64,000 bases of DNA from Armatimonadota bacterium (lineage in GTDB: Bacteria > Armatimonadota > Fimbriimonadia > Fimbriimonadales > Fimbriimonadaceae), in NCBI GenBank assembly GCA_027451905.1, contig DAIDHV010000001.1, positions 286,667-350,666 of the forward strand. The letters run 5' to 3'. The notes below the pieces were generated by a model. That model did not search any database. It was not told where the DNA came from and saw only the letters and a program-made list of their open reading frames with translations. Position numbers and translations under genes: made by a program. Within the stretch, counting starts at the first letter, position 1. Each line of letters starts with the position of its first letter. Of this stretch, positions 43,688 through 64,000 are shown piece by piece.

Positions 43688-43794
43688 AGGCTCTCTTCTT
43701 TTCCTACTCTTTTAGACGCTTGGTGTTTGCGGTTGTTTCAACCGGTCATAGGACCCTGAATAGAAATAAAGCGAATCTGGTTAGCTTCATAAAG

Positions 43795-44904
43795 ATGTTG
43801 TTTGTAGCGATTCCCCATCATGTCTCAATAACCCTCGGCAAGCCTCAGATTGTTTTTCAGAGTGGCGAACCCGCAATTACCGGCTTTTCCACGTTTCGGA
43901 TCCCTGCCATTGCTTTTACAAAAAATTTTGAGACTCTTGCTTTTGCAGAAGGGCGCCGCAGCGTTTTGGATCAGTCTCAAAATGAAATTGTCATGAGGGA
44001 AAAACCATGGGGGGCCAAAAAGTGGGGTCCGATAAGGGTTGTAGAATCGGCTGGAGAAAATTCTCTAAACAACCCCTGCGTCCTTGTTGATGGATTCGGC
44101 ACCGTCTGGCTTATGTATCAGCAATATCCTAAAGGGAAGACGGAACGATCCGTGTCAACCGGATACTCACCAAGCACCAGTTGCCAAAGCTTTGTGATTG
44201 ATAGCCGTGACCAGGGAAGAACATGGTCCGCGCCAATAAATATCACCAGACTTGTTCGGCCGCTAAAGGAAAGGTCTGTGGCAAGTGGCCCCGGCAATGG
44301 ACTTCAAATCCAAGCCGGACGTTACAAAGGGCGGCTTGTTTTTCCGTTCAACGAAGGGTCAAAGGGACTCTACCAAAACTTTGTTGTTTACAGCGATGAC
44401 GGAGGTATTACGTGGCAGAGGGGGGCTGATGCGCCAGAACCCATAGGAATCAATGGCAACGAGTGTCAAATTGCAGAAGGTGCCAACGGCAATCTGATCA
44501 TGAACAGCCGCAATCAGGGCCGTCTCCACTATCGGCTGGAGTCGATAAGTAAAAACGGAGGCGAATCTTGGAGCGAACTCAAGCCCAATAGGACCCTTAT
44601 TGATCCCGTGTGTACTGGATCCATCCTAAGGGTCTCGTTTCGACCATCTCTCTTGGCATTTTGCAATCCCGCCAGCCGAACTCACCGGATTCTAGGGACG
44701 CTAAGATTGTCTTTCGATCAAGGAGCCTCGTGGCCCCAATCTATTCTGATCAAGAAGGGTTCTTTTCAGTACTCTTCGATGTGCGTCGAATCGTCTCACC
44801 GCATAGGCTTGCTCTACGAGTCGGTGGACCTATCCCCCAGTGGCAAGCAAAACTACGACATCTGGTACCTGCCGATCAAATTAAAGTGGGAGGTTCGCCA
44901 CTGA
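43795..44904 (+). CDS. Sialidase-like (BNR/Asp-box) protein
   Basis: 369 residues from the ATG at 43795; the frame is open upstream to a TTG at 43720. The catalytic arginine motif FRIPAI is near the N-terminus, and four Asp boxes follow (SRDQGRTWS, SDDGGITWQ, SKNGGESWS, SFDQGASWP). The blades of a six-bladed sialidase propeller fit this layout. GH33 enzymes cut terminal sialic acids, but the Asp-box fold is shared by other glycan-binding proteins. No convincing signal peptide is seen with either start. It is divergent from the stalk-domain gene and convergent with ribD. Confidence 0.7.
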   Translation: MLFVAIPHHVSITLGKPQIVFQSGEPAITGFSTFRIPAIAFTKNFETLAFAEGRRSVLDQSQNEIVMREKPWGAKKWGPIRVVESAGENSLNNPCVLVDGFGTVWLMYQQYPKGKTERSVSTGYSPSTSCQSFVIDSRDQGRTWSAPINITRLVRPLKERSVASGPGNGLQIQAGRYKGRLVFPFNEGSKGLYQNFVVYSDDGGITWQRGADAPEPIGINGNECQIAEGANGNLIMNSRNQGRLHYRLESISKNGGESWSELKPNRTLIDPVCTGSILRVSFRPSLLAFCNPASRTHRILGTLRLSFDQGASWPQSILIKKGSFQYSSMCVESSHRIGLLYESVDLSPSGKQNYDIWYLPIKLKWEVRH

Positions 44905-44953: not shown

Positions 44954-46018
44954 TTAAAGTACTCGATCGTAAATAAGTTCTACGCATTCGCCAAAAGTCT
45001 TTGTGTGATTCAACCGCCATCTTATCGCATCCTCGAGTGGCTTCCATTGACCCGTGACCCAAGGAGGACCGTCACCCAAGATCACATTGCCAACAAACAG
45101 ATGCAAGCGATCCACTAAATCGGCATCAAGAAAACCTTTGGCGGTGATGGCACCGCCTTCGATTAACACCCCCTTATTTCCGTACTCATAGATTTTGGCA
45201 AGCAGAGTTTTAAGGTCAAACCCTCCTCCATCAGCGGCTATCTCGCGATCATAGGGCACGGCTGCCTTTTCCACAAAACGCACAGCCGGATGCTCTCCCT
45301 GAAACACATGATATTGGCCCGAGAGGCTGGCTTTGGCATCCAGCACAAATCGAGCCGGTTCATTGACCACCCCCTTGATCCTCGAGGTCAACAAGGGGTT
45401 ATCCGTTTGAATGGTCTTTCTGCCAACAAGGACGCTTCCGTATTGGCATCTTAACCTTCTTCCTTCTGTGCGCGCCTTTTCATTTGTGATCCATTGGCTG
45501 GTGCCATTTGGCAGTGCTATCCTGCCATCAAGGCTCATTGCCACTTTAAGCCCCACAAATGGGCTCCGTCGCTGAACTGCAGTTAGCCATAGATGGTTGA
45601 CCCTGCTTGCCTCGTCTTGAAGCAAGCCTTGATGAACAAGAATTCCTGCCGACCGAAGGACATCAGCTCCACCGCTTGCCGCCGGATTGGGATCGGCTAC
45701 TGCAAAAAAAACCTGCCTAACTTTGGCCGCAATCAGGGCCTGAGTGCAGGGCGGAGTTCTTCCAAAGTGGCGGCAAGGCTCAAGGGTCACAAAAACATCA
45801 GCTCCTTCTGACTTTTTGTCGGCTTGTTTCAGGGCTTCCACTTCGGCGTGAGGACCACCTGCATAGTTGTGAAACCCTCTGCCAACGATCTCGCCGTTTT
45901 TGACAATGACGCATCCCACATGAGGATTAGGAGCCGGAAAACCTTTTTTGCTTAACTCAATCGCCACTTTCATCGCAGAAGCATTGATGGCATTTGAGTC
46001 TTTTCTATTGATTTGCAA
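44954..46018 (-). CDS. ribD: Bifunctional riboflavin deaminase/reductase RibD
   Basis: 354 residues if started at the TTG two bases past the upstream stop; an in-frame ATG at 46075 would add 19 residues inside the previous gene. The start is preferred because it puts 29-30 residues before the conserved PNPHVGCVIV, as usual. Zinc deaminase motifs HAEVEAL and EPCRHFGRTPPC; reductase domain with VGLKVAMSLDGRIAL, SQWITNEKAR and LIEGGAITAKGF. It performs the second and third steps of riboflavin synthesis. It is the last gene of a long - strand cluster. Confidence 0.93.
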   Translation of the reverse strand: MQINRKDSNAINASAMKVAIELSKKGFPAPNPHVGCVIVKNGEIVGRGFHNYAGGPHAEVEALKQADKKSEGADVFVTLEPCRHFGRTPPCTQALIAAKVRQVFFAVADPNPAASGGADVLRSAGILVHQGLLQDEASRVNHLWLTAVQRRSPFVGLKVAMSLDGRIALPNGTSQWITNEKARTEGRRLRCQYGSVLVGRKTIQTDNPLLTSRIKGVVNEPARFVLDAKASLSGQYHVFQGEHPAVRFVEKAAVPYDREIAADGGGFDLKTLLAKIYEYGNKGVLIEGGAITAKGFLDADLVDRLHLFVGNVILGDGPPWVTGQWKPLEDAIRWRLNHTKTFGECVELIYDRVL

Positions 46019-46019
46019 T

Positions 46020-46349
46020 TTAGCTCTCTGCCTTTGAGTTAGAGGCTTTCTGAAGCTCGGCTTGGGCCGCTTCAACCAACTGCTGATAATTGGCTTGCCT
46101 AGCTACTTGATAGTCTTCCCTCATCTCAACAATTACCCAAACCGCAAAGATAGCGCTCGACAAAAAATAAAGGAGGTTAGCGGCACTATAAGACAGCATC
46201 AACCCACTGTAGGCAAGGACCCGCCGGTGCTCAATCAGCGTAGGATGGGCGCTTAGAGCAGGGGGCTTGATGCTGAGTATCCAAGGATAGCCAAACATCA
46301 TGATCAGGCCAATTAAAAAGCAAACGGTGCTTACCGCACGTATCCGCAT
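46020..46349 (-). CDS. Small two-TM protein with charged helix
   Basis: 109 residues, unrecognised. Membrane segments at about 5-28 (AVSTVCFLIGLIMMFGYPWIL) and 48-72 (YSGLMLSYSAANLLYFLSSAIFAVWVI), then a C-terminal amphipathic helix rich in Gln, Ala and Glu. It overlaps the rpe stop by 19 bases and ends one base before ribD, so it is part of the transcript. Role unknown. Confidence 0.6.
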   Translation of the reverse strand: MRIRAVSTVCFLIGLIMMFGYPWILSIKPPALSAHPTLIEHRRVLAYSGLMLSYSAANLLYFLSSAIFAVWVIVEMREDYQVARQANYQQLVEAAQAELQKASNSKAES

Positions 46350-46984
46350 GATTTTTCCAATACCTCTACCGCCTCTTGGATCGAGGCAGGCTTTTGCAAA
46401 TAACTGCCAACCACAAACAAGTTGGCTCCCGCATCTTGGGCTCGCTTAATTGTAAGTGGCTCGATCCCACCATCAACCTCGATAAACACTTCTGGACGCA
46501 AATGCCGAATCTTCTGCACTTTTTCAAGGCATTCCGGCAAAAACTTTTGTCCCCCATAACCAGGATTCACGGTCATGACCAACACAAGATCTACAAGTGT
46601 CAAGATCGGCATTATGGCTTCCACCGGCGTGCCAGGATTGATGGCAATCCCCGCTTCCATACCTGCGTCCTTGATTTGCTGCATTAGGCGATGAGAGTGC
46701 ACTGTGGCTTCAACATGAGCAATTAGCCTAAAGCAGCCAGCTTTTGCAAACGCATCAATTTGCTTTTCGGGCGTCTCGATCATCAGATGGGCTTCCACCG
46801 GTAAATCCACAATTCCTACCACAGATTTGGCAAGTCCATCCCCAAATGTGATCGGTGGCACAAACTGACCGTCCATGACATCGAGGTGAATGAGATCAAC
46901 CCCCGCGTCTTGCATCGCCAGTAAGGGTCCTTTCAGATCGGCATGAGGAAACGTTAAAACAGACGGAGCAATCGCCGGTCGCAT
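46331..46984 (-). CDS. rpe: Ribulose-phosphate 3-epimerase
   Basis: 217 residues. The start is set at MRPAIAPSVL because a GGGAGGT ribosome binding site lies about eight bases upstream. TIM-barrel signatures: LIHLDVMDGQFVPPITFG (metal site), VEAHLMIETPEKQI, MTVNPGYGGQKF, and EVDGGIEP. It interconverts ribulose 5-phosphate and xylulose 5-phosphate. The stop of the upstream pseudokinase gene is two bases away. Confidence 0.95.
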   Translation of the reverse strand: MRPAIAPSVLTFPHADLKGPLLAMQDAGVDLIHLDVMDGQFVPPITFGDGLAKSVVGIVDLPVEAHLMIETPEKQIDAFAKAGCFRLIAHVEATVHSHRLMQQIKDAGMEAGIAINPGTPVEAIMPILTLVDLVLVMTVNPGYGGQKFLPECLEKVQKIRHLRPEVFIEVDGGIEPLTIKRAQDAGANLFVVGSYLQKPASIQEAVEVLEKSCGYVR

Positions 46985-46985
46985 A

Positions 46986-48965
46986 TCATTGACCTCCCGT
47001 TGGCGGCGCATCGAGGCCGCTGCCTGATTGAGCACTGGGAGAATTAGATGGCCTAGGGACTTTGGTGCCTTTTTGCGGAGCTTGGGCAGTACCGTGCACT
47101 TTAATCGATTGCTTGAGGACCCCGTCGTAATAGATGAGAAACTTCGCGTCGGGATCGGGACTCACCGTTGAGATATTAACCACATCATTGGGATCGTGAG
47201 TTTCTTCTAAAATTGGTCTTTGCCCCAGGCTATCCGATATATCCACCCGAAGTTCTACTGCGGATTGAACATGAGTGACTTTGATTGTTAAATCGTAGTC
47301 GTAATTGGCTTGGGATGGGTTTGTATTGGAAGAATTGGGAGCAGAGTTTGCTGCTGACTGGCCCGAATTCCCCTGGGTGCCTTGGTTGGACCCGGTAGTG
47401 GCAGCATTTGTGGCAGGAGCAGCCGGTGGAGGAGGTGGCAGTCCATTGCTGATTGCAACCCTCACTTCGGAGCCTTTCTGAACCGTCTGCTTAGCGGGAG
47501 GGTCTTGGGTGGACACTTGCCCTTGCGGCAACAAAGACGGCTGTTGGGTCACCGGCTGCTGCAAGATTAAATTGAGATTTTTTAAGACGCCGGTTGCTTG
47601 GTCTAAAGTCATACCTTTAAGGTCTGGCACCTGAACCGTGTTGGGTCCGGAATTCACAATAACGCTGATGGTTGCACCAGCCACTATTTTCTCACCCGCT
47701 TTTGGATCGGTATCAAGAATCGTATCGATTGGCGCGGTTGGATCAGACTTTTCGCCAACTTCTTTGATATTGAGGTGTAAGGGAACTAAGGACTGCCTTG
47801 CATCGCTAAGCAGCTTGCCTTTGAGGTTTGGCACCGTAACCAGGCTTTTGTGGCTAAGATTAAACAATATATAAAGGGCAATAGCCCCAGTGATGACAAT
47901 TCCAATGGCAAGCCCAATAGCTCCAACAAGCCATCCGGGAACATCTCTTTCTCTACTCATAGCTTTCCTTTGCGGCTGCTCTCTAACCGAGTTCAGTCTA
48001 GGGGCAACTGGTAAATCCTCAATCTTTTTAGTCTGAGCCTTGGGTCTTGGATTTGGCGACAACGCCGCTTTGGTTGCGGCAGTTGCTACCCCCGCTACGT
48101 TAGAAAGGGCTCCTGCAGGCTTTATGGGCCAGGTCAACACCTTGCCAAACCTTAAGGCATCTTGCAGCAGCCTTAAGTCATTTTGCATTTCCAACGCATT
48201 GGCATACCTCTGGCTAGGATCTTTATCCATTGCCTTTTTTACAATCTGAATCAAGACCTCGGGGGCATCATTACTGCTAAGAATCGGGGTTGCAACCGTC
48301 GCATGCTTGAACGCCATGGCAAGGGGTGTTTCTGCCGTGTATGGCAAATGGCCGCAAAGCAGCTCATACAAAAGTATGCCTACCGCATACACATCACTTT
48401 GCTTGGAAGGCAAACCGCCCGAACTCACTTCAGGGGCCAAATACGCTGCCATCGAGGGTAGCACCACTTGGCCCGCGGTTTGGCTATGGCTGTATGCTTC
48501 CCAGATTCCGGCAAGTTGAAGCCGGGCACTGCCATCCGCTCCGATCACGATGTTTTTAGCGCTGAGATCTCCATGAATGATCCCCGCCTCGTGAATAGCT
48601 CCAAGCCCCTCTAAGATAGAAACCACTGTCTGAACAGAAACGGACTTGCTAAAGGGAGCCAGCTTTTTGATTCGGTCTGCCAAGGTGATATCAGGGCTAA
48701 GTTGCCCGATGACATACGGCTTGCCCATATCCACTTCGACGCTTTCTAACCGCTCGACACCGGGGTGGTGAATGCCGAGGGTCTTTTGAATCGCAAGGCC
48801 AACCGAGGCAACAAATCCCTTTTCATCATCAAAAGGGGGTTTGAAAGCCCGTACCGAGACTTCTCTGCCTTGGAGCCTATCTTTGGCTGAATAAATCTTA
48901 AAGATCGGGCCTTCACCAATTAAACCCGTTAGTTCGTACCGAGATCGGATCAGATCGCCAATCAC
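46986..48965 (-). CDS. PASTA-domain Ser/Thr pseudokinase
   Basis: 659 residues from a GTG whose GTGA overlaps the upstream stop; an in-frame ATG lies 12 codons earlier. Kinase-like domain at about 5-270: the Gly loop is GEGPIFKIY, the VAIK lysine is Arg39 (VSVRAF), HRD is HGD at 131-133 with Asn138 kept, but the DFG aspartate is lost (LAG, 151-153); the APE motif is present (YLAPEV). A membrane helix (about 343-370) precedes two PASTA domains (about 374-511), then a Pro/Asn/Gly-rich region and a beta-rich tail. PASTA domains bind peptidoglycan fragments. It looks like a catalytically dead sensor or scaffold, unlike PknB/PrkC. Confidence 0.8.
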   Translation of the reverse strand: MIGDLIRSRYELTGLIGEGPIFKIYSAKDRLQGREVSVRAFKPPFDDEKGFVASVGLAIQKTLGIHHPGVERLESVEVDMGKPYVIGQLSPDITLADRIKKLAPFSKSVSVQTVVSILEGLGAIHEAGIIHGDLSAKNIVIGADGSARLQLAGIWEAYSHSQTAGQVVLPSMAAYLAPEVSSGGLPSKQSDVYAVGILLYELLCGHLPYTAETPLAMAFKHATVATPILSSNDAPEVLIQIVKKAMDKDPSQRYANALEMQNDLRLLQDALRFGKVLTWPIKPAGALSNVAGVATAATKAALSPNPRPKAQTKKIEDLPVAPRLNSVREQPQRKAMSRERDVPGWLVGAIGLAIGIVITGAIALYILFNLSHKSLVTVPNLKGKLLSDARQSLVPLHLNIKEVGEKSDPTAPIDTILDTDPKAGEKIVAGATISVIVNSGPNTVQVPDLKGMTLDQATGVLKNLNLILQQPVTQQPSLLPQGQVSTQDPPAKQTVQKGSEVRVAISNGLPPPPPAAPATNAATTGSNQGTQGNSGQSAANSAPNSSNTNPSQANYDYDLTIKVTHVQSAVELRVDISDSLGQRPILEETHDPNDVVNISTVSPDPDAKFLIYYDGVLKQSIKVHGTAQAPQKGTKVPRPSNSPSAQSGSGLDAPPTGGQ

Positions 48966-49183
48966 GATTCTGTTTCTTTCACCCGATCTTCTTTGGGCCA
49001 AATCAGAGCCGACAGCACTGTAACGACTAGCGCCCCGAGCGCCAAGTGCTGAACGGGAGGAACATCAACTCGCTTGGCATAAGCAGCAAAATTCCCTGTC
49101 AGCCAGTCCCATTGGCTAGCTCCGTATCCAATGGTTAGCAGGGAAAGGATCACAACAAACAAGGCCGCTCGAATTGTTTGCAT
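48962..49183 (-). CDS. Small two-TM membrane protein
   Basis: 73 residues, unrecognised. Two membrane segments at about 4-22 (IRAALFVVILSLLTIGYGA) and 45-62 (LALGALVVTVLSALIWP). It overlaps the pseudokinase gene by four bases and starts 18 bases after aroB, so it belongs to the same transcript. It could be a partner of the pseudokinase; this is only positional. Confidence 0.6.
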   Translation of the reverse strand: MQTIRAALFVVILSLLTIGYGASQWDWLTGNFAAYAKRVDVPPVQHLALGALVVTVLSALIWPKEDRVKETES

Positions 49184-49201: not shown

Positions 49202-50242
49202 TTATGAAGCGTTCTTCTTGTTGATCTCAAAAAGTGAGGCTTTAATCAGGTCTTCTGGGATCCCTCTAACAAGTTTGCAGACGCCAATGTCTCCGATTAA
49301 GCTCATATTGATGGTATGATCTGCCTTCTTATCTTGCTTCATCAGCTTGATCAAACCTTCCGAATTAGCAAGGGCAGGGTGCCAAATAGGTAATCCATGC
49401 GATTGCAGGGTTTGCTGAACAACATTGAAGGTTTCCGCTGAACAAGTGCCTAGCTTTTCGGCAAGATAGCACTCCACAACCATACCAATAGAAATGGCTT
49501 CTCCGTGCAGCAAATCTTGGTAGTGAAGATGTGATTCTATAGCGTGGCCAACCGTATGACCAAAATTGAGAATGGCTCTCCTCCCTGAGGTTTCAAACTC
49601 ATCTTCTTGCACAACCTGGGCTTTACAGTGGATGCAAGCTGCTGCCACCGAAGCGTAATCACCGTCCTTGATCCACTTTTGGAGGGATTGAAGAAGGCCC
49701 GGAACCATGATAAATCCGTACTTTAAAACTTCCGCCAATCCATTGCGGAGATGCCTTTTTGGAAGGCTCTCCAGCACTTGGGGGCAGATTCGAACCTCCT
49801 TCGGTGGCCAAAAGCTTCCAACCAAGTTCTTACCAAATTCGGTGTCAATCCCAACTTTGCCTCCAACCGAAGAATCGACCATCGCGAGTAAAGAGGTCGG
49901 AATCATGACAAGGGCAACGCCGCGCATATAGGTGGCGGCGGCAAATCCTGCCAAATCACCAATGACTCCGCCGCCAAGGGCGATGATCGTACTTTTGCGG
50001 TTGGCGCCATTTTTGCTAAGCCAGTCTAAACAGAGGCTGTAAAACTCTAGGCTCTTTGTAGTCTCGCCTGGGGGCAGCGTGAGGACCTTCAATTCGGCTG
50101 GGATTTGGATTTTGGTTGCAACATTTTGGTCCGTAATTAGGTAAGCAGACTCTTTGGAAAACCCGCTAAAGAGTTCGCCGAGTTCAACAAACTGAACGGA
50201 ATAGCTTCCTCTTTGATGATTAATTGTCTCGCTGGTTTTCAA
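49202..50242 (-). CDS. aroB: 3-dehydroquinate synthase
   Basis: 346 residues. NAD-binding and active-site segments: IIALGGGVIGDLAGFAAATY, IPTSLLAMVDSSVGGKVGI, LPKRHLRNGLAEVLKYGFI, metal-binding NFGHTVGHAIE and HGEAISIGM. It makes 3-dehydroquinate in the shikimate pathway. It overlaps aroK by 23 bases, giving the conserved pil-aroK-aroB order. Confidence 0.97.
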   Translation of the reverse strand: MKTSETINHQRGSYSVQFVELGELFSGFSKESAYLITDQNVATKIQIPAELKVLTLPPGETTKSLEFYSLCLDWLSKNGANRKSTIIALGGGVIGDLAGFAAATYMRGVALVMIPTSLLAMVDSSVGGKVGIDTEFGKNLVGSFWPPKEVRICPQVLESLPKRHLRNGLAEVLKYGFIMVPGLLQSLQKWIKDGDYASVAAACIHCKAQVVQEDEFETSGRRAILNFGHTVGHAIESHLHYQDLLHGEAISIGMVVECYLAEKLGTCSAETFNVVQQTLQSHGLPIWHPALANSEGLIKLMKQDKKADHTINMSLIGDIGVCKLVRGIPEDLIKASLFEINKKNAS

Positions 50243-50762
50243 GTCTTAAGAATATCTCGTATGCAGCCTTTGCGATTGCGTCGACCCCTTCGTTGCCTAC
50301 CTCCAACACTGCATCTGCCTTCAGGTAGAGTGGCTCGCGATGGTTGAGGAGTTCAGAAACCGTTTCTTGCCAAGATTCTGAGCTGAGCAGCGGTCTTTTT
50401 TTTCTGCTATTTTCTAGTCTTTCCAAGAGAACTGGCAAGGGCGCTCGCAAATATAAAATTGGGCCCAGCCTACGCATTTCTTGCCAGTTATCCTCTCGTA
50501 GCACAATTCCTCCACCGGTAGCAAGCACGATCGGCTCTGGTTCTAGGCTTCTCAAAACTGCCGCCTCATGCTCTCGAAACGCATCTTCACCATAGATTCT
50601 AAAGATTTGGGTAATGCTTCTTCCCAATCGACTTTGCACTAAGGAGTCTGTATCTTGATACTCTCTGCCGGTTAGTTCGGCCAGGGACCTGCCTATTGCA
50701 GACTTACCGGCTCCCATCATTCCCACCAAGATTAGGGTTTTTGTGAGAGGAGGGTTGGACAT
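50220..50762 (-). CDS. aroK: Shikimate kinase
   Basis: 180 residues. Walker A GMMGAGKSAIGRSLAE, shikimate-binding DTD (YQDTDSLVQ), FREHEAAVL, TGGGIVL and the lid RPLL. It phosphorylates shikimate. It lies 69 bases downstream of the secretin gene, past a hairpin, and overlaps aroB. Confidence 0.96.
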   Translation of the reverse strand: MSNPPLTKTLILVGMMGAGKSAIGRSLAELTGREYQDTDSLVQSRLGRSITQIFRIYGEDAFREHEAAVLRSLEPEPIVLATGGGIVLREDNWQEMRRLGPILYLRAPLPVLLERLENSRKKRPLLSSESWQETVSELLNHREPLYLKADAVLEVGNEGVDAIAKAAYEIFLRLENQRDN

Positions 50763-50831: not shown

Positions 50832-52541
50832 TTAAAGACCCGTGTTGCTGCTGCTAGAATCTTTTACGATTGTAGGAGTCACAAAAATCAAGAGTTCAGA
50901 ATCTTGCTGGCTTGTTGTATTTGACCGGAAGAACTGACCAATGATTGGAAGATCGGACAGGATGGGGAATCGGTTCTGAGATCCTGAATCTGTCTTTTGA
51001 GTCACACCGCCAAGCACAATGGTTTGTCCATTGTTGACTCGAACCACAACTTGGACTCCTTCTTGCAGAATCTGCGGAAGGGTCTGACCATCAGGGAATT
51101 TGACTTCCTGGCCAAGTTGCCGAATGTTTGGATTCAGAAACATGGTGATGGTTCCGTCATTGTTGATTCTCGGTGCAACCGTTAAGAAGGTTGGAACATT
51201 GATCTGGTTGATTTGGACCGAGTTCTGCACCAATCCGCTTGTCACCGCACTTGTTGTTGTTTCAAAGAAGAGGGTGATCGAAGAAAACACAGAAGCAGGT
51301 TCGTTGTTCATCGTTGTGATGACAGGAGACGAAACCGTCTTACCGTAGCCTTGCGTCAGCAAGGTTTTGAGACGGGTTAGAATGTTTCCAAACGCGTAGT
51401 TAACGAAGATTGGATCGTTAGACGAAGTAAACGTTCCGGGGACGTTTCCTGCCGAGATCGTTCCTCTCTGATACAACCAGTCAAAACCGAGGTCCTTGTT
51501 GATGTTTGTACTTGTCGTAATGAACTCAACTTTAATTTGAACTTGCTTTGGCACCGTATCAAAGGTTGCAATCGTCTTTTGAAGCTTGTCAATGTCGTCT
51601 GGAGTTCCCGAAACGATAATTGAGTTGTCGGTTGGATCGTACTCAATGTTCTTAATTGAACTTGGGACGAAACCCTGACCGCCTTGCAACTGAGGTTGCT
51701 GACCACCAAGTCCGCCACCACCACCGAGTCCGCCGCCGCCGCCAAGACCGCCGCCGCCACCAAGACCGCCGCCGCCGCCAAGACCGCCTCCGCCACCAAG
51801 GCCGCCACCACCGAATCCACCGCGACCACCGCCGCCGAGCTGATTTGCTGCTTCGCCGGGAAGTTGAATGGAATTCGTTGAGCCGGAATCTGCCGAGCCT
51901 AACAATCCCTGACCATTAGAAGGTCGGTTCATGTAGTCGTTAGACCCAACTGGCTCTGCAATAGGCTTGGCAGGAACAAAATCGCCACCAGAGCGCATTA
52001 AAATTGCATTCTTTGTGAACTGGTTAAGCTGATCAAATTCTCGAGTATCAAAAACTCGATTCGTTCCGTTCAAATAGGATCGGTTCTCAACCTCTTCCAA
52101 CACAGTCTTTGCGTCAGCGTGCATCAACTTGATGCGCTTTACAATTAACTTCGGTGCAGGTTCCACAACAGCAGGATCAGCCGCTGGCTTGGTGAGAGGC
52201 TTTGGGCTAATGATATAGACACCATTCTTGTCTCGATGGAAGAAAGCCCCCGCTGCTTCGCAGATGTACTTAAGCGCATCTTCTGCGGAAACATTCGATA
52301 GTTGCAGAGTGATCTGCTTGTAAGGCTTGCTTGACTGCATGAAGATAAACTGCAATCCGGTTTGAGCGGTAAGGCTCAGGGTTGCATCTTGCAGATTTGC
52401 ATCTGTCAAGTTCAACCTATGAACGACGAGTTGTGATGGCCCGGTTTGTTGAGCCGCATTTTGAGCCATCGCTACACTGGCGGTTGCCATAAAGGCTACC
52501 GTCAGTGCTGCAATTCCCCAAACCCCTTTGTGTAAACGCAT
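50832..52541 (-). CDS. pilQ: Type IV pilus secretin PilQ-like
   Basis: 569 residues from the second in-frame start (MRLHKGVWGIAAL), which gives a clean signal peptide ending near SVAMAQN. An N0/STN domain (VVHRLNLTDANLQDATLSLT) is followed by a secretin N1-type section (IVKRIKLMHADAKTVLEEV). About residues 235-282 are a Gly-rich linker of repeated LGGGGG units. The next section (NIEYDPTDNSIIVSGTPDDI) leads into the secretin barrel with SSPVITTMNNEPASV, FLTVAPRINNDGTI and the closing VLGGVTQKTDSGSQNRFPIL. It forms the outer-membrane pore through which pili pass. Confidence 0.88.
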   Translation of the reverse strand: MRLHKGVWGIAALTVAFMATASVAMAQNAAQQTGPSQLVVHRLNLTDANLQDATLSLTAQTGLQFIFMQSSKPYKQITLQLSNVSAEDALKYICEAAGAFFHRDKNGVYIISPKPLTKPAADPAVVEPAPKLIVKRIKLMHADAKTVLEEVENRSYLNGTNRVFDTREFDQLNQFTKNAILMRSGGDFVPAKPIAEPVGSNDYMNRPSNGQGLLGSADSGSTNSIQLPGEAANQLGGGGRGGFGGGGLGGGGGLGGGGGLGGGGGLGGGGGLGGGGGLGGQQPQLQGGQGFVPSSIKNIEYDPTDNSIIVSGTPDDIDKLQKTIATFDTVPKQVQIKVEFITTSTNINKDLGFDWLYQRGTISAGNVPGTFTSSNDPIFVNYAFGNILTRLKTLLTQGYGKTVSSPVITTMNNEPASVFSSITLFFETTTSAVTSGLVQNSVQINQINVPTFLTVAPRINNDGTITMFLNPNIRQLGQEVKFPDGQTLPQILQEGVQVVVRVNNGQTIVLGGVTQKTDSGSQNRFPILSDLPIIGQFFRSNTTSQQDSELLIFVTPTIVKDSSSSNTGL

Positions 52542-52576
52542 TTTTAAGTTAAAATCCCCCAAGAAACTATTTTGAT

Positions 52577-53299
52577 TTAGAAGCCGACTCCGCCGCCGCC
52601 GCCGAAGCCGCCGCCGCCGAAACCACCCCCGCCACCAAAGCCGCCGCCGCCAAAGCCGCCGCCGCCGAAGCCGCCGCCGCCGAAGCCGCCGCCACCGAAG
52701 CCGCCGCCGCCGAAGCCGCCGCCGCCGAAGCCGCCGCCGCCGAAGCCGCCGCCGCCGAAGCCACCGCCGCCACCAAAGCCGCCGCCACCGCCTAATAGCT
52801 GGCCATTACTGATTGCTGATGTCTCTGGAACGTTTCCAGCTACTGTCTGCACCTTTCCAGAAAGCAGTTTGAAAATTAAGGCAGGATCGGCGTGCATGAT
52901 CAAAATTTTCCTCGTCACCGTTTCTTGAGTGGGTGCCACGTTGTTGTTCTGATCCGGACCGGTAATAGTAGTTGTTTGCTTAACCAGGATATGGTAAATG
53001 CCACCTTCTAAGCGGTAGGTGTCTCCATTCTGGTTTAGAATATCAATCAAGACCGTATCAAATGGCTTGTTTTTGATTGAAAGCGTTACCGTACCTTGTA
53101 CATCTTGGTCAACTATATAGCTCGCACCAGTCTGCTTGAAGAGCAAATCGAGAGTTGACCGAATGTCTGCACTTTGCACATCAATCGATACGTTTTGCTG
53201 GCTTGTGTTTGTGTCTTGTCCATATGCACTCATCGGTAGTGCAATTGTTCCAAATGCAACCGCGATGGCTGCTGCTGCTAGTTTCAGGTTGTTGTTCAT
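52577..53299 (-). CDS. STN/N0-domain protein with FGGGG repeat tail, no secretin barrel
   Basis: 240 residues. Signal peptide (1-28), then one STN/N0-like domain (about 35-110: VSIDVQSADIRSTLDLLFKQ, VTLSIKNKPFDTVLIDIL) and a short N1-like piece with KILIMHADPALIFKLL, also seen in the secretin. From residue 172 to the end it consists of FGGGG units and their variants. No barrel follows. It starts 69 bases after the pilP-like gene and ends 36 bases before the chosen pilQ ATG. It may be a truncated duplicate of the secretin N-terminus, or an accessory periplasmic ring protein. Confidence 0.75.
   Translation of the reverse strand: MNNNLKLAAAAIAVAFGTIALPMSAYGQDTNTSQQNVSIDVQSADIRSTLDLLFKQTGASYIVDQDVQGTVTLSIKNKPFDTVLIDILNQNGDTYRLEGGIYHILVKQTTTITGPDQNNNVAPTQETVTRKILIMHADPALIFKLLSGKVQTVAGNVPETSAISNGQLLGGGGGFGGGGGFGGGGFGGGGFGGGGFGGGGFGGGGFGGGGFGGGGFGGGGFGGGGGFGGGGFGGGGGVGF
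52578..52795. repeat. Short tandem repeat coding for FGGGG units
   Basis: Tandem GGC/TTC-rich units, mostly 15 bases, with small GGC-number changes. Such slippery arrays can change copy number during replication; because units are multiples of three, changes would keep the frame. Confidence 0.85.
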
Positions 53300-55921: not shown

Positions 55922-57244
55922 TTAGTCGAAAAATCCATACAAGCCATTTCCAAGCGCAACACTAAATTGCTCTTTATTGGCCTCAACAAAGTCAGGTGCA
56001 ACCTTCCTTAGATTGACATTTAGACGCCGAGTTGGATCGTAGAGGTCACACGGCAAATTCAATGCGTCGTGAACATATTCGGAAATACCCTTGATCTTGG
56101 CGCCACCGCCTGCTAAGAAGATTCGATCTACAACCCCGCCCCTGCTTCGGTAAAAATCAATGGACCGGCGAAGCTCATCTAAGAACTCGCTCAAAGTCAC
56201 CGCAATCGCGTTGTACACCGCGGCCTGCTCTGGATTGTCTTGAGGCACGGGAGCTGAGCTGGCAGGAGGCGCTTCTGCCGGTTGAGGCTGCGCATCGGTC
56301 GGCTCCGCATCTGCAGTCGGTGGTGCGGCAGACGCACTTGCGTTAGTTTCTTCGTGAAAAGGATTGTAGGGGGTTCCGCTCATCTGAGTCGGCTCTGCCG
56401 TCGCTGCAGGAGGCGCATCAGAAAATGGCGCGTAAGGCGCGTAGGTAGCATTAGGATCAGCAAAGGGATTCATCGGCGCCGCAGCCTGAGAGCCGGCACC
56501 AGCCGGAATGGAGGCTTGTTCCATTTTCTTCCGCTCTGCATCATCCATCGAGATTCCAAACGCATCCGAAATCGCTTGGGTGAAGTTCTCGCCGCCAATT
56601 GGCACCTGGCGGGGCCAAAGCAACTTTCCGTTCTTGTAAATATTAATGGAAGTGGTTTTGTGTCCTACGTCAACAAGGCACACCGTCTCATTCTCGATTG
56701 CATCCATGTAGGAAGAAGCTAATGATCTTGCGTAGCTAAGCGGCGGCACATCGATGGCGCCAAGCTTCTTGCCTGCCTTCTTAAAGCACTGCACGACAAT
56801 GTCGATTGCGGATTGAGGAGCCGCCGCCATCACCACATCAATATTGGCGGAAGAAGGATCTTCCTCAGCCAGTTGCTTGTAGTCGCTTAATATGTTGCTT
56901 TCTGCAAACGGAGATTGGTTTTGGATCTCCCAGCCCATATGCTGCTCCAATTCGTCCTTGGACATCCTTGGAACTTCAAGGCATTTGACCAAGACAGCAG
57001 CTTGGCCATTGATTGAAACCACTGCATCGCCAATCGTTGCCCCGCAATCATGAGCACATTGCTTGATTGCCGCACCCACCGCATCGGGGTTTTGAATTCC
57101 CGTGTGGTCAACCGAGCCTACCGGCGTTTCAACTAAACCTAATGCAGACACCATAGGCTCACGACCCTGTGTCCTCACTTCGGCAACTTTAATCGTTCGA
57201 CAGCCTATGTCGACCCCAAGAACATTGCTTAGCTTTTTAGCCAT
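55922..57244 (-). CDS. pilM: Type IV pilus assembly ATPase-fold protein PilM
   Basis: 440 residues. Actin-like fold motifs: LGVDIGCRTIKVAEV, DAVVSINGQAAVLVKCLEVP, CLVDVGHKTTSINIYKNG and FLAGGGAKIKGI, the last typical of PilM/FtsA. Usual PilM has about 350 residues; here about 100 Ala/Pro-rich residues (about 255-350) interrupt the protein. PilM binds the PilN N-terminus on the cytoplasmic side. An AAGGAAA sequence precedes the ATG. It is the first gene of the pilus cluster. Confidence 0.92.
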   Translation of the reverse strand: MAKKLSNVLGVDIGCRTIKVAEVRTQGREPMVSALGLVETPVGSVDHTGIQNPDAVGAAIKQCAHDCGATIGDAVVSINGQAAVLVKCLEVPRMSKDELEQHMGWEIQNQSPFAESNILSDYKQLAEEDPSSANIDVVMAAAPQSAIDIVVQCFKKAGKKLGAIDVPPLSYARSLASSYMDAIENETVCLVDVGHKTTSINIYKNGKLLWPRQVPIGGENFTQAISDAFGISMDDAERKKMEQASIPAGAGSQAAAPMNPFADPNATYAPYAPFSDAPPAATAEPTQMSGTPYNPFHEETNASASAAPPTADAEPTDAQPQPAEAPPASSAPVPQDNPEQAAVYNAIAVTLSEFLDELRRSIDFYRSRGGVVDRIFLAGGGAKIKGISEYVHDALNLPCDLYDPTRRLNVNLRKVAPDFVEANKEQFSVALGNGLYGFFD

Positions 57245-57656: not shown

Positions 57657-60600
57657 CTAGTTGGATAGCTTGTAAAGGGCAGGTGCAATGGTTTCGAAGT
57701 AGATGTCCGAAGTCCCGTTGCGGCTGCTGGTCCAGAAGTTCCAAATGAGGTCTGGCCTTCTTAAGTTGAATGCAGTTGGATCAAACGGATCCAGGAAACT
57801 TGTCACCTGGGTTTCATTTCCTGGTCTATCTATCGGCAGTGCTTGCTCCGGTGTCTCCACAACCAAGGTAGGCACAAACGTCACCGCGTTGCCACCTGTC
57901 CCCGCCGTAATCACATTCCCTTCGTCTTCAGTTGTGAAGTATTGGAAGTTCTGGTTTGGACCTAAGGCATTGTTGGCAAAGTTAACCTGGTTTGGAATTC
58001 CTATCCGAAGAGTCATCCACATGGGCTGAGACCTTGTTCCAACTCCACCAGATCCTTTGTCAAACGTTAAGATATACCGATCGTTCCTCACTAAGTTGTT
58101 ATTCAAATTAGCTGGAGTTCCATCTGGGTTGTACCAATTTCGGTCCTGAATCGTACCATTGGCCAGATAGCTTGCGGAAGCGGCAAGGTGGCTGTCCCAG
58201 CTCAGCGTTGGGCGGCTGTAAGACTGCACCGAGCTTGAGCTAACCCTGAGAATCTTCGGTTGATACGTGAGGCTAATCGTGGCACTGTTGGTTGGAATGA
58301 TTCCCGAAAATCGAACCGTACCGGTGGTGGAATCAAGATAGACTCTGCCCGCGGCCGGATCGTTATAGGTAAACGTTCCCGAATTTGGATCGTAGCTTGG
58401 CGTGGTTGTCAATGGCACTCCATTGATCGAAAGACCAAACGTCCCCGTTGGATTCCAATCCAAGCCCTTGGTTCGATAGACTCCCAGCGGATCGTTTGTA
58501 GACCTCGTCAGGACTTCATTGGTTATGAGCGGGAAGTAGCTCAGTTGCTGACCAGCAGCATTGGAACTATTCGGCACCGCATTGCCGTCGGTTGGCATTC
58601 TTGCCATAAAGATTTCCGTATTTGCACGGCCCTTAAGATGGCCAGCAAACGCAAAATCAATCACCGCTCCGATTGTTGCTACCGTCGATTCATCGGCCCC
58701 ATTGTAAACCCGTGCAATTCCAGAAGGATCGGAGGCACTTAAGAAGCCAGTTCCCAAATTGATTGGGGTGGGTTGGCCAAAGGTGCCATTTTGGTCCACA
58801 ACGTAGAACAATCGGTTATTTCCGGTGTCACCAGTGCTATACAACACGGTCGTTGAGTTTTGAGTCTCAATGACGGATGGTTTCGATATGGGAGCGTCGC
58901 TAGACACCGGTGTCTGTACAACCGCACCCAATGTTGGAGCTACGCCCTGATTAGGGGTTAGGGTTCCCAAGAACAGGCGATTGACCGTGGTCTGCCCGAT
59001 CGGTGATTGCACCTGAGCCGAACCTGTAAAGCCGAACACCATGTTTGCAAAAGATTGGTTTTCGTTGTAAGGGTCAACCACTCCTGCCGAGGGGAATGAA
59101 GGATTGCCAAAGGTGGCTGAATCTATTTCACCAGCCTGAGTTCCGATGACATGCTCATTGGCTCCCACTTGGAACAACGCATTCACGGCAGCTCCATTGG
59201 CTGCAGACGGCCCAACAGGATAAGGACCAGCAGCCGTGTACCAAGGCGATCCGTTTGCACTTGTTGAAAAGGCATTGAGGTCTCTAAAGACATTGGTGCC
59301 AGCAACATTCACTGGAGAAGCTCCCAGCAATCCGCCAAAGTACAGCCTAAAGGCATTTTGGCTAGCCGATGGCAAGACCCCGGTGCCAATTGCTGGCCGG
59401 TTCGAACTCCACGACGCGATCAAATTGCCAAAGAGGTCTCGAGTTGCAGCGGGTTGGACGTTGCCATCTAGCGCGCCACCAGTCCACCCATTCGGAACCA
59501 AACTCTCCATCATTGTCGAAACATTGTTGGAAGAACTATTGGTGAGCCTTGTCTCCCGAACCGTAAACGAAAGATTGAGAGTCGGGTCAGAATAGGTTTC
59601 CTGGCCCTGAGCCAAGCTAAGGTCATATCCGGGCGCCACAGTTGGATTGGCACTGTTCCAAGTTCGATCTTCAATAAGGCGAACAAGTTGACTGTATTGA
59701 CCAACCGGAGTTCCAATTGGAGGTGTAATCGCAATCTGAGGGTTCTGTACCGGATAGCCTGCTACCAGCGGCAAATCGGTGATCCTGCTAATTGGATTAG
59801 AAGTAATCGAAGTTCCGCTTGCATCGGTGACTCTTGGCTTTTGCGAGAAGACTTCGCCTCTCGCCAGTGTTCCGCTAAGAGCAGAAGGCGAGAAGGTTGG
59901 ATCAAGATCGCTCCACATATTCGCGCTTCCATCAATCCAAGCCAAATCATCGTTACCAGACGAATAGAATGGCCAAGCTGTGTAAGCGGTGCCCTGATTG
60001 AAAAAGTGGGCCAATCTCACGTTCAGCAAGTTGGTGTTCCCGTCATTAATTGCAGAGAAGCTCTTATACACAGTGGGCAAACCAGGGATAACCCACGGCG
60101 TGTAAGGAGTGCTTCCAGTGGTTGTTGGAGTTAATCCCAACCCCTCTGCAAGAGGACCAAGGTCAACCGAAGGCGTCATTACAGAAATGTGCTGCTTAAC
60201 ACTAACTCCGGTGCCAAGTATGAAGGACCGATCCGCATCTCTTTGACCGTTGTTGGGGTTATAAATCCCACTGTTAAACCGATCAATAAACACGTTCATC
60301 CAACCATCGTATCCTGCATATTGAGGATTACCAAGCGCATCGGGTGACGTGCCCAAATTGGCAGGTTGGAACTGAGGAATCGAGACGTCAAACTCAAATG
60401 GGGTTGGGTTTGGAGCCCGTTTGTCATAGGATTTCGGAGGAACTGCCGTGTTCGTGTAGTTTCCGTTTGCGTCGGTTGTAAAGAGATTCAACGGAAATTC
60501 TAAAGTCACTCCATTAAACAGAGGATTCTCAGTCTTGCCATTTGGCTCTTTAATAACATTCACATCTTCTGGCTTCATATCTGGGTAATCCAAGCTATCG

Positions 60601-63600
60601 TTTGGAAAATCCGTTGGATATTGCTCAAATGTACTCAGTAAGGCGTTTCCAGGATAGAGGCCATTTGCCCCGCCAATTGGGTTCACAACGCTGTTGTATC
60701 CACCTTGCCAAGCCATGGTGCTACGATCAACCCGAACGTTGGTAATGCCTCCGATATCGGGTCCATTAAGAAGAACCATAAGGCTTCGGTCATAAACATT
60801 GACATCTGCCGTGGAGACCGTTCCAGGATCGCTTAAATCATTGCTCGCAGAACCAACCTGCAGGTTGGTGCCAGCAAGCAAGGACTCAGACAGAGGATAG
60901 GATGGGCTAACGCCATTGAATCCATTTTGCGCATTCGCGGGCGACGCAAAAGAATTGACATCTGCGCCTAAAGAATTTCCTATTGTGCCATAGGCTGTTG
61001 TAGGATCTAAAGCGATGCCCAATGGATTAGCCAACTGGAAAGCAAGCTTTTCTGTGTTAGGATTGACAATAACCTGAGTCATCCCTCCGCCAGGCTGAGA
61101 GGCATTGATGGTGAAGGAAATTGCGCCGGTGCCAGGAGTCAGCGAGCTGGTTCCCGAAACAACAATCGGGTACGCCATTGCCACAAATCCATCTTCGCCG
61201 TTAGGCGCCCCTGAGAACTGCCTTGCCGTTTGCGGCACACTTCTCGTCGTCATTCCTGGCACATTAAATGTAAAGTTAATGGTTGGTGGAACCGTGCCTC
61301 CCGTTGAGTAAGGAATGTTGAACACGACTACGTACATGGTTTGCCCAAAGTCGAACCCAGCCGGTTGAGGCACAAAGTTGGCTGCGTTCTGAACAATGGC
61401 GTAGCTTGGGTTGGTTGTGGCAGTTAGCTGTTGATAAGCGCTTGCAGTAAGAAACTGAATGTTGAAGTTCTTGAACGACTGGGCAATGGGGCTATTAGGA
61501 GGGCTGCCCATTGAACCAGGCCCACCGCCATTGCCATAAGAATTGACCGAGCTAAAATCGTACAAAATTCCCTGATCGTCGGTTGCCGCAAGTTGATTGA
61601 ATGCGGTTGCCATACCAGTCGACGTTGAACTTGCCGCTGTTGAGTAGAAGTACGCCAGCCTTGTACCGACTGAGTTTAGCTGAGCCTGAGCCGCAAATAA
61701 GCCGTAGTAATGGCCATCATCACTGGGGACCATAACCATGGGCTGAGGAGTTCCAAACAAGACGCCGGCATTATTGTAAACATTAACGTCGGTGTAAGTC
61801 AGCGGTGCGGAAACACCCGTGTTCAACTCATTGGTAGACCAGAGAATCGAGCCATTATCGCTGAAGGCGTAGATATACCCGTTCCGGTTGGAAGCATAGA
61901 TGTAATTGTTGCCATCTCCCACCAGCCCAAACGCGGTTGCGGGACCGCCGTCAAAACTGTCCCAAGCGGCATTGGTATCAACCCAATTTACGGAGCCAGT
62001 ATCGGCGTTCAAAGAGTAAAACGAGCCAGCAGTACCGGTTCTGATCTCGGTTCCAAAGTAGAGAGAAGGCTGAGTGCCATCAATTGCGGGGGTGCCCGCG
62101 ATGGGACCAATTGTTGGCTGCGTTACGGTTGGATAGGCCCACTTTACGGTTGTTGTCTTTGTGGCAGAGTTACCAGCTGCATCAAGCGCGTAGATACGAC
62201 CTTGCATGGAGGGCACATAAATGGTTGGACCACTTGCAGGGTCTGCAAAGAGAAGCGAAGCCTGAAAAGCACCCAAATTGCTGGGAACCGGAACGCTTGG
62301 ATAGTCATTGGGATAGCTCCAGATTCGAGTTGTGGTACCAGGCGCTTGCTGAGCAAAGTTGTTATCGCCTCTGCCTTGCATGTCAATGCAATAAACTCGA
62401 CCATTGGAACTGGCGATATAGCAATAATAATGACCCGATCCTGGCGGTACTTCTGCTAAAACAGGGCTAGATTTGCCGAACCCAGTGGGCATGGTTGCCA
62501 AGATAACTCCGTTGGTGCCATCAGGACCCAATGAATTCGGATCCTGAGCGTTGGGGTTAAGAGGGTTTGGCAGGCTTGGATAAGCCCAATAGATATTGGT
62601 GGTTCCGTTTCCGTTCCCGTCCGCGTCTAAGCAGTAAATTCGACCATCTTCTGCTCCCACAACCACAACGTTCTTGGTTTCAAGTTGGACGCCAGAAGGG
62701 GTGCCAACATTGATCGGAATGGTTGCGTAGGCAGGGGTTGAGTCGATAGCAACGTTAGTTGTCGCTACAAACCTCACCGCATCTGCATAGGCATACTTTC
62801 CTGCATCGCCAGGAAGGGCGCTGTAGTTTGTGATCTTTACAACCAGAGGCTCTGCCGTGCTGTTGGCAAACGGAGCAACCCCAAGGCGATAGTAGCCGTT
62901 GAGCTGCTGTAAGTTCACAACATAAAGATGAGCAGTGGCGCCTTCATCAACTTCAACTTGAACTTGCTGAGCATAGTTGTAGTTGGCTTGGGTGCCGGGC
63001 AGCCACATATAAACGCTGTAATTGCCATTATTGAGCGTTGGCTGATAAACAAATTGAGTTGAAGTTGCCAAGGTGTTGGTAATCGGAGCCGTGTAATAAT
63101 CAGGACCTTGGTTGTACGTGGTTCCCACATTTTGGGTCCAACCGAGGCCAGGCACAATCGATGCACTCGGCATATCAACAGTTATGAACTGCTGGGACGC
63201 ATTAGGAACCGTAAATGACCACAATGGGGTGACCGTGCCCGAACCGATTTGGCTGGCAAGGGCCTGCAATGTTCCTTGCTGCTCGGTGACGATAGTGCCG
63301 TTAACGTTGGTGGCAACATTATTGTTAAAAACCGAATAGACTCGGTACCCATTAGGGGTGTTGTTCGGGTCTGCCACAATAATTGGCTGAGTTGGGCTAC
63401 CGGCAAAGTTAGGAACCGTTTGAGCTGCGTCGGCATAGACCCAAAACGTCTTGCTGAGCGTTCCACCCGCGGTCAAAGATACGCCTTCTAAATTACCATT
63501 AGAATCTCGTGGAACCGTATTGTACAGGGTCACCTTGATAGGTGTAACCCCATCATAGCTAAATAGATCATTGCTGGAACCGGTGCCCTGAGGCAGGGTT

Positions 63601-64000
63601 ACCCAGCCACTATTGCTAGCAAGTCGATCAACAACGTCCACGTACCGATTCCCCGCCGAATCTGTGACCGAATAAACAAAGTACCGCTGAGCAAAATTGA
63701 CTCCCAAACCTGGATCGGTAGTTGGTCCGGTAGGAAGCCACACTTGAACTTGATAACTTCCTGGCGCCGGCGTATTGGTGTTGCCCGCAAAGGTTTGCTG
63801 AGTGGGCGCTAAATCCCATGTGAAAGTGTTCGCCGTAAAACCAGTCTGAGGCACCGAAGGATCGGTACCAGGTTGAGAAGGAACCACAACCGAATACTCA
63901 TACGGGGTTGTTGGATTATCGCCAGGATAGTATCCAACCGCCGCATCAATCGGATTGTTGGGATAAACCCAACCGGTAGAGGCAAGGACGCCGCTTGCGG
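57657..64000 (-). CDS. Giant protein with golvesin-like domains and PQQ-type propeller (5' end outside window)
   Basis: More than 2,110 residues visible; the frame stays open to base 64000. Near the visible N-terminus are two golvesin/Xly CBD-like domains (PAPGSYQVQVWLP ... RYVDVVDRLASNSGWVTL; NGNYSVYMWLPG ... YADAVRFVATT). Then comes a PQQ-like beta-propeller (about residues 400-800) with repeats such as GAEDGRIYCLDADG, SSNGRVYCIDMQG, SMQGRIYALDAAG and NRNGYIYAFSDNG. The remaining 1,300 residues are Asn/Pro/Thr-rich strands without a recognised family, ending SRNGTSDIYFETIAP. Probably secreted and surface exposed. It sits upstream of the pilus genes, where PilY1-type propeller adhesins are sometimes found; that link is speculation. 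Confidence 0.8.
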   Translation of the reverse strand, partial: ASGVLASTGWVYPNNPIDAAVGYYPGDNPTTPYEYSVVVPSQPGTDPSVPQTGFTANTFTWDLAPTQQTFAGNTNTPAPGSYQVQVWLPTGPTTDPGLGVNFAQRYFVYSVTDSAGNRYVDVVDRLASNSGWVTLPQGTGSSNDLFSYDGVTPIKVTLYNTVPRDSNGNLEGVSLTAGGTLSKTFWVYADAAQTVPNFAGSPTQPIIVADPNNTPNGYRVYSVFNNNVATNVNGTIVTEQQGTLQALASQIGSGTVTPLWSFTVPNASQQFITVDMPSASIVPGLGWTQNVGTTYNQGPDYYTAPITNTLATSTQFVYQPTLNNGNYSVYMWLPGTQANYNYAQQVQVEVDEGATAHLYVVNLQQLNGYYRLGVAPFANSTAEPLVVKITNYSALPGDAGKYAYADAVRFVATTNVAIDSTPAYATIPINVGTPSGVQLETKNVVVVGAEDGRIYCLDADGNGNGTTNIYWAYPSLPNPLNPNAQDPNSLGPDGTNGVILATMPTGFGKSSPVLAEVPPGSGHYYCYIASSNGRVYCIDMQGRGDNNFAQQAPGTTTRIWSYPNDYPSVPVPSNLGAFQASLLFADPASGPTIYVPSMQGRIYALDAAGNSATKTTTVKWAYPTVTQPTIGPIAGTPAIDGTQPSLYFGTEIRTGTAGSFYSLNADTGSVNWVDTNAAWDSFDGGPATAFGLVGDGNNYIYASNRNGYIYAFSDNGSILWSTNELNTGVSAPLTYTDVNVYNNAGVLFGTPQPMVMVPSDDGHYYGLFAAQAQLNSVGTRLAYFYSTAASSTSTGMATAFNQLAATDDQGILYDFSSVNSYGNGGGPGSMGSPPNSPIAQSFKNFNIQFLTASAYQQLTATTNPSYAIVQNAANFVPQPAGFDFGQTMYVVVFNIPYSTGGTVPPTINFTFNVPGMTTRSVPQTARQFSGAPNGEDGFVAMAYPIVVSGTSSLTPGTGAISFTINASQPGGGMTQVIVNPNTEKLAFQLANPLGIALDPTTAYGTIGNSLGADVNSFASPANAQNGFNGVSPSYPLSESLLAGTNLQVGSASNDLSDPGTVSTADVNVYDRSLMVLLNGPDIGGITNVRVDRSTMAWQGGYNSVVNPIGGANGLYPGNALLSTFEQYPTDFPNDSLDYPDMKPEDVNVIKEPNGKTENPLFNGVTLEFPLNLFTTDANGNYTNTAVPPKSYDKRAPNPTPFEFDVSIPQFQPANLGTSPDALGNPQYAGYDGWMNVFIDRFNSGIYNPNNGQRDADRSFILGTGVSVKQHISVMTPSVDLGPLAEGLGLTPTTTGSTPYTPWVIPGLPTVYKSFSAINDGNTNLLNVRLAHFFNQGTAYTAWPFYSSGNDDLAWIDGSANMWSDLDPTFSPSALSGTLARGEVFSQKPRVTDASGTSITSNPISRITDLPLVAGYPVQNPQIAITPPIGTPVGQYSQLVRLIEDRTWNSANPTVAPGYDLSLAQGQETYSDPTLNLSFTVRETRLTNSSSNNVSTMMESLVPNGWTGGALDGNVQPAATRDLFGNLIASWSSNRPAIGTGVLPSASQNAFRLYFGGLLGASPVNVAGTNVFRDLNAFSTSANGSPWYTAAGPYPVGPSAANGAAVNALFQVGANEHVIGTQAGEIDSATFGNPSFPSAGVVDPYNENQSFANMVFGFTGSAQVQSPIGQTTVNRLFLGTLTPNQGVAPTLGAVVQTPVSSDAPISKPSVIETQNSTTVLYSTGDTGNNRLFYVVDQNGTFGQPTPINLGTGFLSASDPSGIARVYNGADESTVATIGAVIDFAFAGHLKGRANTEIFMARMPTDGNAVPNSSNAAGQQLSYFPLITNEVLTRSTNDPLGVYRTKGLDWNPTGTFGLSINGVPLTTTPSYDPNSGTFTYNDPAAGRVYLDSTTGTVRFSGIIPTNSATISLTYQPKILRVSSSSVQSYSRPTLSWDSHLAASASYLANGTIQDRNWYNPDGTPANLNNNLVRNDRYILTFDKGSGGVGTRSQPMWMTLRIGIPNQVNFANNALGPNQNFQYFTTEDEGNVITAGTGGNAVTFVPTLVVETPEQALPIDRPGNETQVTSFLDPFDPTAFNLRRPDLIWNFWTSSRNGTSDIYFETIAPALYKLSN

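Follow-up and report, generated by a model that had tools for sequence, protein, structure and literature searches.

The usual reading of PASTA kinases is that they sense the wall and act through phosphorylation. The receptor kinases of this family (PrkC, StkP, and PknB; NCBIfam NF033483) have a kinase fold, a transmembrane (TM) segment, and PASTA repeats in this order, and in Firmicutes they are encoded with rpe nearby. In Bacillus, rpe is placed in one operon with prpC, prkC, and cpgA (PMC8631317); the Firmicutes order is prkC-rsgA-rpe, and at a Veillonellaceae PASTA-kinase locus the distance from the PASTA match to the downstream rpe is about 1.2 kb. In M. tuberculosis, the pseudokinase domain of MviN (ActPs3) does not bind ATP or Mg2+, aromatic residues fill its pocket, and it serves wall homeostasis through partner recruitment (PMC12599244). 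The DYD family is characterized by replacement of the β3 Lys with Arg, by loss of the αC Glu, and by DYD in place of DFG, and in GLW pseudokinases GLW replaces HRD and the β3 residue is Leu or Trp (PMC12599244). Neither Armatimonadetes nor Fimbriimonas is named in this review of bacterial pseudokinases, and no published description of a PASTA pseudokinase was found in the open-access literature searched, an absence that is not proof.

The window (the whole stretch of 64,000 nucleotides that was analysed) codes on the minus strand for a 659 aa protein at 46986..48965, with a GTG start at 48965-48963 and a TGA stop at 46988-46986, exactly where the preliminary description had placed it. By Pfam, it has a Pkinase domain (8e-25) along with a pair of PASTA domains (3e-20); the presence of PASTA domains had been noticed there too. 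The kinase fold (residues about 9-266) is followed by a linker, a TM segment (about 352-378), PASTA1 (about 384-450), PASTA2 (about 451-515), a Pro-rich linker, and a C-terminal domain (about 559-640) that resembles, as judged by eye, that of a Veillonellaceae PASTA kinase. Kinase fold, TM segment, and PASTA repeats, the layout of PASTA receptor kinases, are all present, and the nearest solved chains are pneumococcus StkP (6e-34) and PknB. The protein differs from the receptor kinases in having neither the β3 Lys nor the DFG Asp and in having two PASTA domains, and its locus is without adjacent PP2C or rsgA. Its alignment with NF033483 spans residues 3-509 and scores 283.7 bits, below the cut-off of 450, while three HRD paralogues reached 492-525 and three motif-intact HGD relatives 384-447. 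The kinase-domain model, predicted from an alignment of three sequences, has pLDDT of 67 (below 50 in the DFG/activation segment); it confirms the kinase fold and is uninformative on the pocket.

The motifs of the window protein are VSVR in β3, HGDLSAKN in the catalytic loop, LAG in the DFG slot, and LAPEV with the APE kept, so that the positions of the β3 Lys, HRD Asp, and DFG Asp are occupied by R, D, and L, respectively. The codon of the VAIK lysine (48849..48851, minus strand) is CGG for Arg39, and that of the DFG aspartate (48513..48515, minus strand) is CTT for Leu151. As each of them is at least two bases from any Lys or Asp codon, respectively, neither substitution is of the kind expected from a one-base error. 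The GTDB family of the window is probably Fimbriimonadaceae, phylum Armatimonadota. Of its 85 genomes, 83 contain a homologue, and motifs were aligned for 61 proteins, i.e., those from 60 family loci and that of the window. In β3, 58 of them have Arg, two have Lys, and one has Gly. Asp is missing from the DFG slot in 61/61; its first position is mostly Leu or Met, and the slot mostly reads [LM][APT]G, with a hydrophobic residue and then Trp after it (W155, two residues past the slot, 60/61). His131 and Gly132 are invariant (61/61), Asp133 of the HGD is present in 54/61 with E, G, C, or H in the other seven, and Asn138 is present in 43/61. In the APE motif, P178 is kept in 61/61 and E179 in 59/61. 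The αC Glu column shows no variation in HRD/DFG paralogues but is unconserved in the family, and the pattern of the glycine-rich loop is gone. Replacement of the VAIK lysine by Arg, loss of the DFG aspartate, and retention of APE had all been noticed in the preliminary description and hold for the family as a whole. The comparison of kinase motifs in orthologues proposed there returned the same losses in the 61 family sequences. The refuting case named there, orthologues with VAIK/DFG intact, therefore fails, which leaves a practically negligible chance that an ordinary PASTA kinase is hidden behind a local sequencing or annotation error.

A kinase fold with at least one residue of the catalytic triad lost, the loss being shared by orthologues, corresponds to the general definition of a pseudokinase. 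Because of the NF033483 score below 450 and the lost catalytic residues, the window protein was filed as a putative pseudokinase variant derived from the PASTA receptor kinase family and not as a member kinase. By its motifs it falls outside the named bacterial pseudokinase families GLW, DYD, and ActPs3. Like DYD proteins, the window family has Arg in β3 and has lost the αC Glu, but the DFG slot differs (LAG in the window, with the first position never Asp in 61/61). GLW pseudokinases are likewise membrane-associated and share a superficial G-[ILVF]-W string; in the window family this string comes after the DFG slot, and HG(D) is retained, with HG conserved in 61/61. MviN is similar as a membrane-tied pseudokinase linked to peptidoglycan control, but it is without PASTA, has all three motifs lost, and has its activation loop deleted, whereas the window family keeps APE and mostly HGD, and so membership in ActPs3 was rejected as well. 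The MviN pseudokinase is the nearest functional precedent.

Kinase-domain dN/dS in pairs from the window's family with estimable dS was 0.048, 0.008, and 0.093, the second value being rough as its dS of 2.3 is near saturation. Three pairs from another family, f3, gave 0.09-0.11. Judged by these ratios, the pseudokinase is under strong purifying selection across the family. Mean pairwise identity in the family is 43% for the kinase fold, 38% for PASTA1, 32% for PASTA2, and 31% for the C-terminal domain. The ratio of C-lobe to N-lobe conservation is 1.37 in the family and 0.94 in HRD/DFG paralogues; such a raised ratio is expected if constraint on the nucleotide site was relaxed and a surface was kept, but it is weak evidence since the ratio is also raised, at 1.23, in HGD relatives with the catalytic residues intact. 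Of 88 class genomes, 86 have a PASTA protein; the number of PASTA matches in a genome is almost always two, and in the window's own genome both fall inside the pseudokinase ORF. No second, active PASTA kinase was seen among the PASTA matches of the 88 class genomes. Genomes G034 and G100 have no PASTA match at 95-96% completeness, through either loss or an assembly gap.

Relatives were compared phylum-wide, many of them from the same locus, in a tree built without the trait columns by a quick method with SH-aLRT support only. HRD/DFG PASTA kinases (86, drawn open) are apart from a lineage in which HRD became HGx (96 for this HGD lineage). The window's family, f1 (99), is sister to f2 (99 for both together), in which β3 is Arg and DFG is kept. 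In f3, on the other hand, the β3 Lys is kept and the DFG Asp is changed to Gly, and its neighbours G101 and G102 have DFG kept. Members of the HGx lineage in several other classes (e.g., G150, G164, G169, and G182) retain K, D, and D. The minimum number of changes on the tree is at least seven for the DFG Asp and at least seven for β3, several of these sitting on long, uncertain branches. The losses of the DFG Asp in f1 and f3 are nevertheless separate events. As sister families each lost one, different residue, the decay of catalysis went step by step and along parallel lines. Among the genomes that carry two PASTA proteins, some (G195, G200, and G204) have a copy on the aroB side that is degenerate or without a kinase domain, and an HRD/DFG copy elsewhere. 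Kinase-less PASTA proteins beside aroB were seen at L127 4016-4798 and L142 6831-7649 (G200 and G204).

All genes of the operon are on the minus strand. The pseudokinase lies between aroB (49202..50242) and rpe for ribulose-phosphate 3-epimerase (46331..46984), whose start is one nucleotide past the pseudokinase stop; this position had been given correctly in the preliminary description, as had the overlapping small membrane protein. The latter is a two-TM protein of 73 aa (48962..49183), whose ORF shares 4 nt (GTGA) with the start of the pseudokinase gene. It could be assigned to no family of Pfam or NCBIfam, and a membrane ORF is at this position in 57/58 family loci and 4/5 f2 loci. Upstream of aroB are aroK (50220..50762) and a pilQ-like secretin (50832..52562), in a block of which pilM (55922..57244) is the first gene; ribD (44954..46075) is on the other side of rpe. 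Nearly all family loci share the order secretin-aroK-aroB-pseudokinase-rpe-ribD. Another small membrane protein of 109 aa (46020..46349), between rpe and ribD, had no match above the Pfam or NCBIfam cut-off. Small membrane proteins thus flank the pseudokinase-rpe pair, and the one at 46020-46349 was seen in many loci.

The preliminary description considered wall-sensing by a pseudokinase tied to central metabolism to be an unusual arrangement. A catalytically degraded PASTA receptor is indeed present, but its setting is not unusual, given that proximity of a PASTA kinase to rpe is the standard arrangement in Firmicutes and that in E. coli K-12 DamX is encoded between aroB and rpe, in the order hofMNOPQ-aroK-aroB-damX-dam-rpe. 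DamX binds septal peptidoglycan via its SPOR domain (PMC4981707). The resemblance to the window protein is that DamX is a division protein that binds peptidoglycan and has its gene between aroB and rpe, downstream of the pil-like hof secretin block, but it has a SPOR domain and no kinase fold, and dam is between damX and rpe, which makes this an analogy of slot and not homology. Three lineages thus have a wall-binding membrane protein encoded near rpe, and by analogy the slot near rpe may have a shared function across them.

Most probably, the window protein is a non-catalytic wall receptor with the kinase fold as a docking scaffold. This reading is drawn from the family-wide loss of catalytic residues with APE and W155 kept, from low dN/dS, from the kinase domain as the most conserved part of the protein, from one PASTA protein per genome, and from the two-TM protein in 57/58 loci. 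The protein would be a bitopic inner-membrane receptor of the cell wall that is no longer a protein kinase, the loss of activity being suggested by its residues. Outside, the ligand of the two PASTA domains and the C-terminal domain would be peptidoglycan or one of its precursors, and inside, the kinase fold would serve for docking with no phosphate transfer. Wall binding would shift the position or oligomeric state of the receptor, which would then recruit or release a partner with an effect on wall synthesis or division. Of the candidate partners, the co-translated two-TM protein is the best placed, its conservation indicating linkage and not contact. Loss of activity, ligand, partner, and output are inferred. 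The retained Asp133 (54/61) and Asn138 (43/61) leave room for some nucleotide binding, and a reading in which ATP is still bound, with weak or unconventional activity via Arg39 and the retained HGD/Asn residues, would be in line with the frequencies of Arg39 (58/61) and Asp133 and with some bacterial β3-Arg families (DYD) having been modelled as ATP binders (PMC12599244). It is quite unlikely, as acidic residues are retained in the DFG slot of DYD members, where the window family never has Asp in the first position, and as Asp133 is replaced in 7/61 and Asn138 in 18/61.

The main rival of the docking scaffold is an allosteric role on one of two active kinases, in which the pseudokinase would form a pair with, and activate, a canonical transmembrane kinase of the same cell and so pass on the wall status. 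The window's genome does encode two other kinases with intact motifs, both without PASTA and one of them with VAVK/HRDVKPDN/DFG and a TM segment, as well as a PP2C phosphatase, and back-to-back dimerization is known for bacterial receptor kinases (PMC12599244). The search for a partner kinase suggested in the preliminary description thus yielded active kinases in the genome, but no linkage of the candidate to the pseudokinase locus was seen, and its C-terminal half was found in only 34/88 class genomes in a single-sequence search. The PknB-type dimer positions 33 and 76 are not conserved in the family (the alignment being approximate), although Arg10 is. The allosteric role therefore seems unlikely. 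It is very improbable that the protein is a decaying relic of an active kinase en route to loss. The kinase domain was wholly lost in the aroB-side copy of some classes (G200 and G204), but the window's form is present in 83/85 family genomes, its kinase-domain dN/dS is far below 1, which disfavours a relic, and family-specific residues are fixed (W155 in 60/61).

A large clade thus has as its sole PASTA protein one that is apparently unable to phosphorylate and yet is strongly selected. Intermediates still live in the same operon slot, i.e., Arg with DFG, Lys without the DFG Asp, and all motifs intact. The scaffold function of the fold would thereby be separated from catalysis, and these families would form a natural series for receptor roles without kinase activity. 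It is possible, and is put forward tentatively, that a module of the two-TM protein and the PASTA pseudokinase replaced PASTA-kinase signalling, with a docking-only report on the wall, stepwise and parallel loss of catalysis, and a fixed operon.

Several other genes around the operon were recorded. Two adjacent secretin-like ORFs are located at 50832-53299, both with long glycine-rich repeats and one of them with N-terminal STN/N0 domains only. A BNR-repeat (sialidase-like) protein encoded on the plus strand at 43720-44904 adjoins the operon. A protein of 2076 aa beside the pil block (57657-63887) has weak beta-propeller and Golvesin_C matches.
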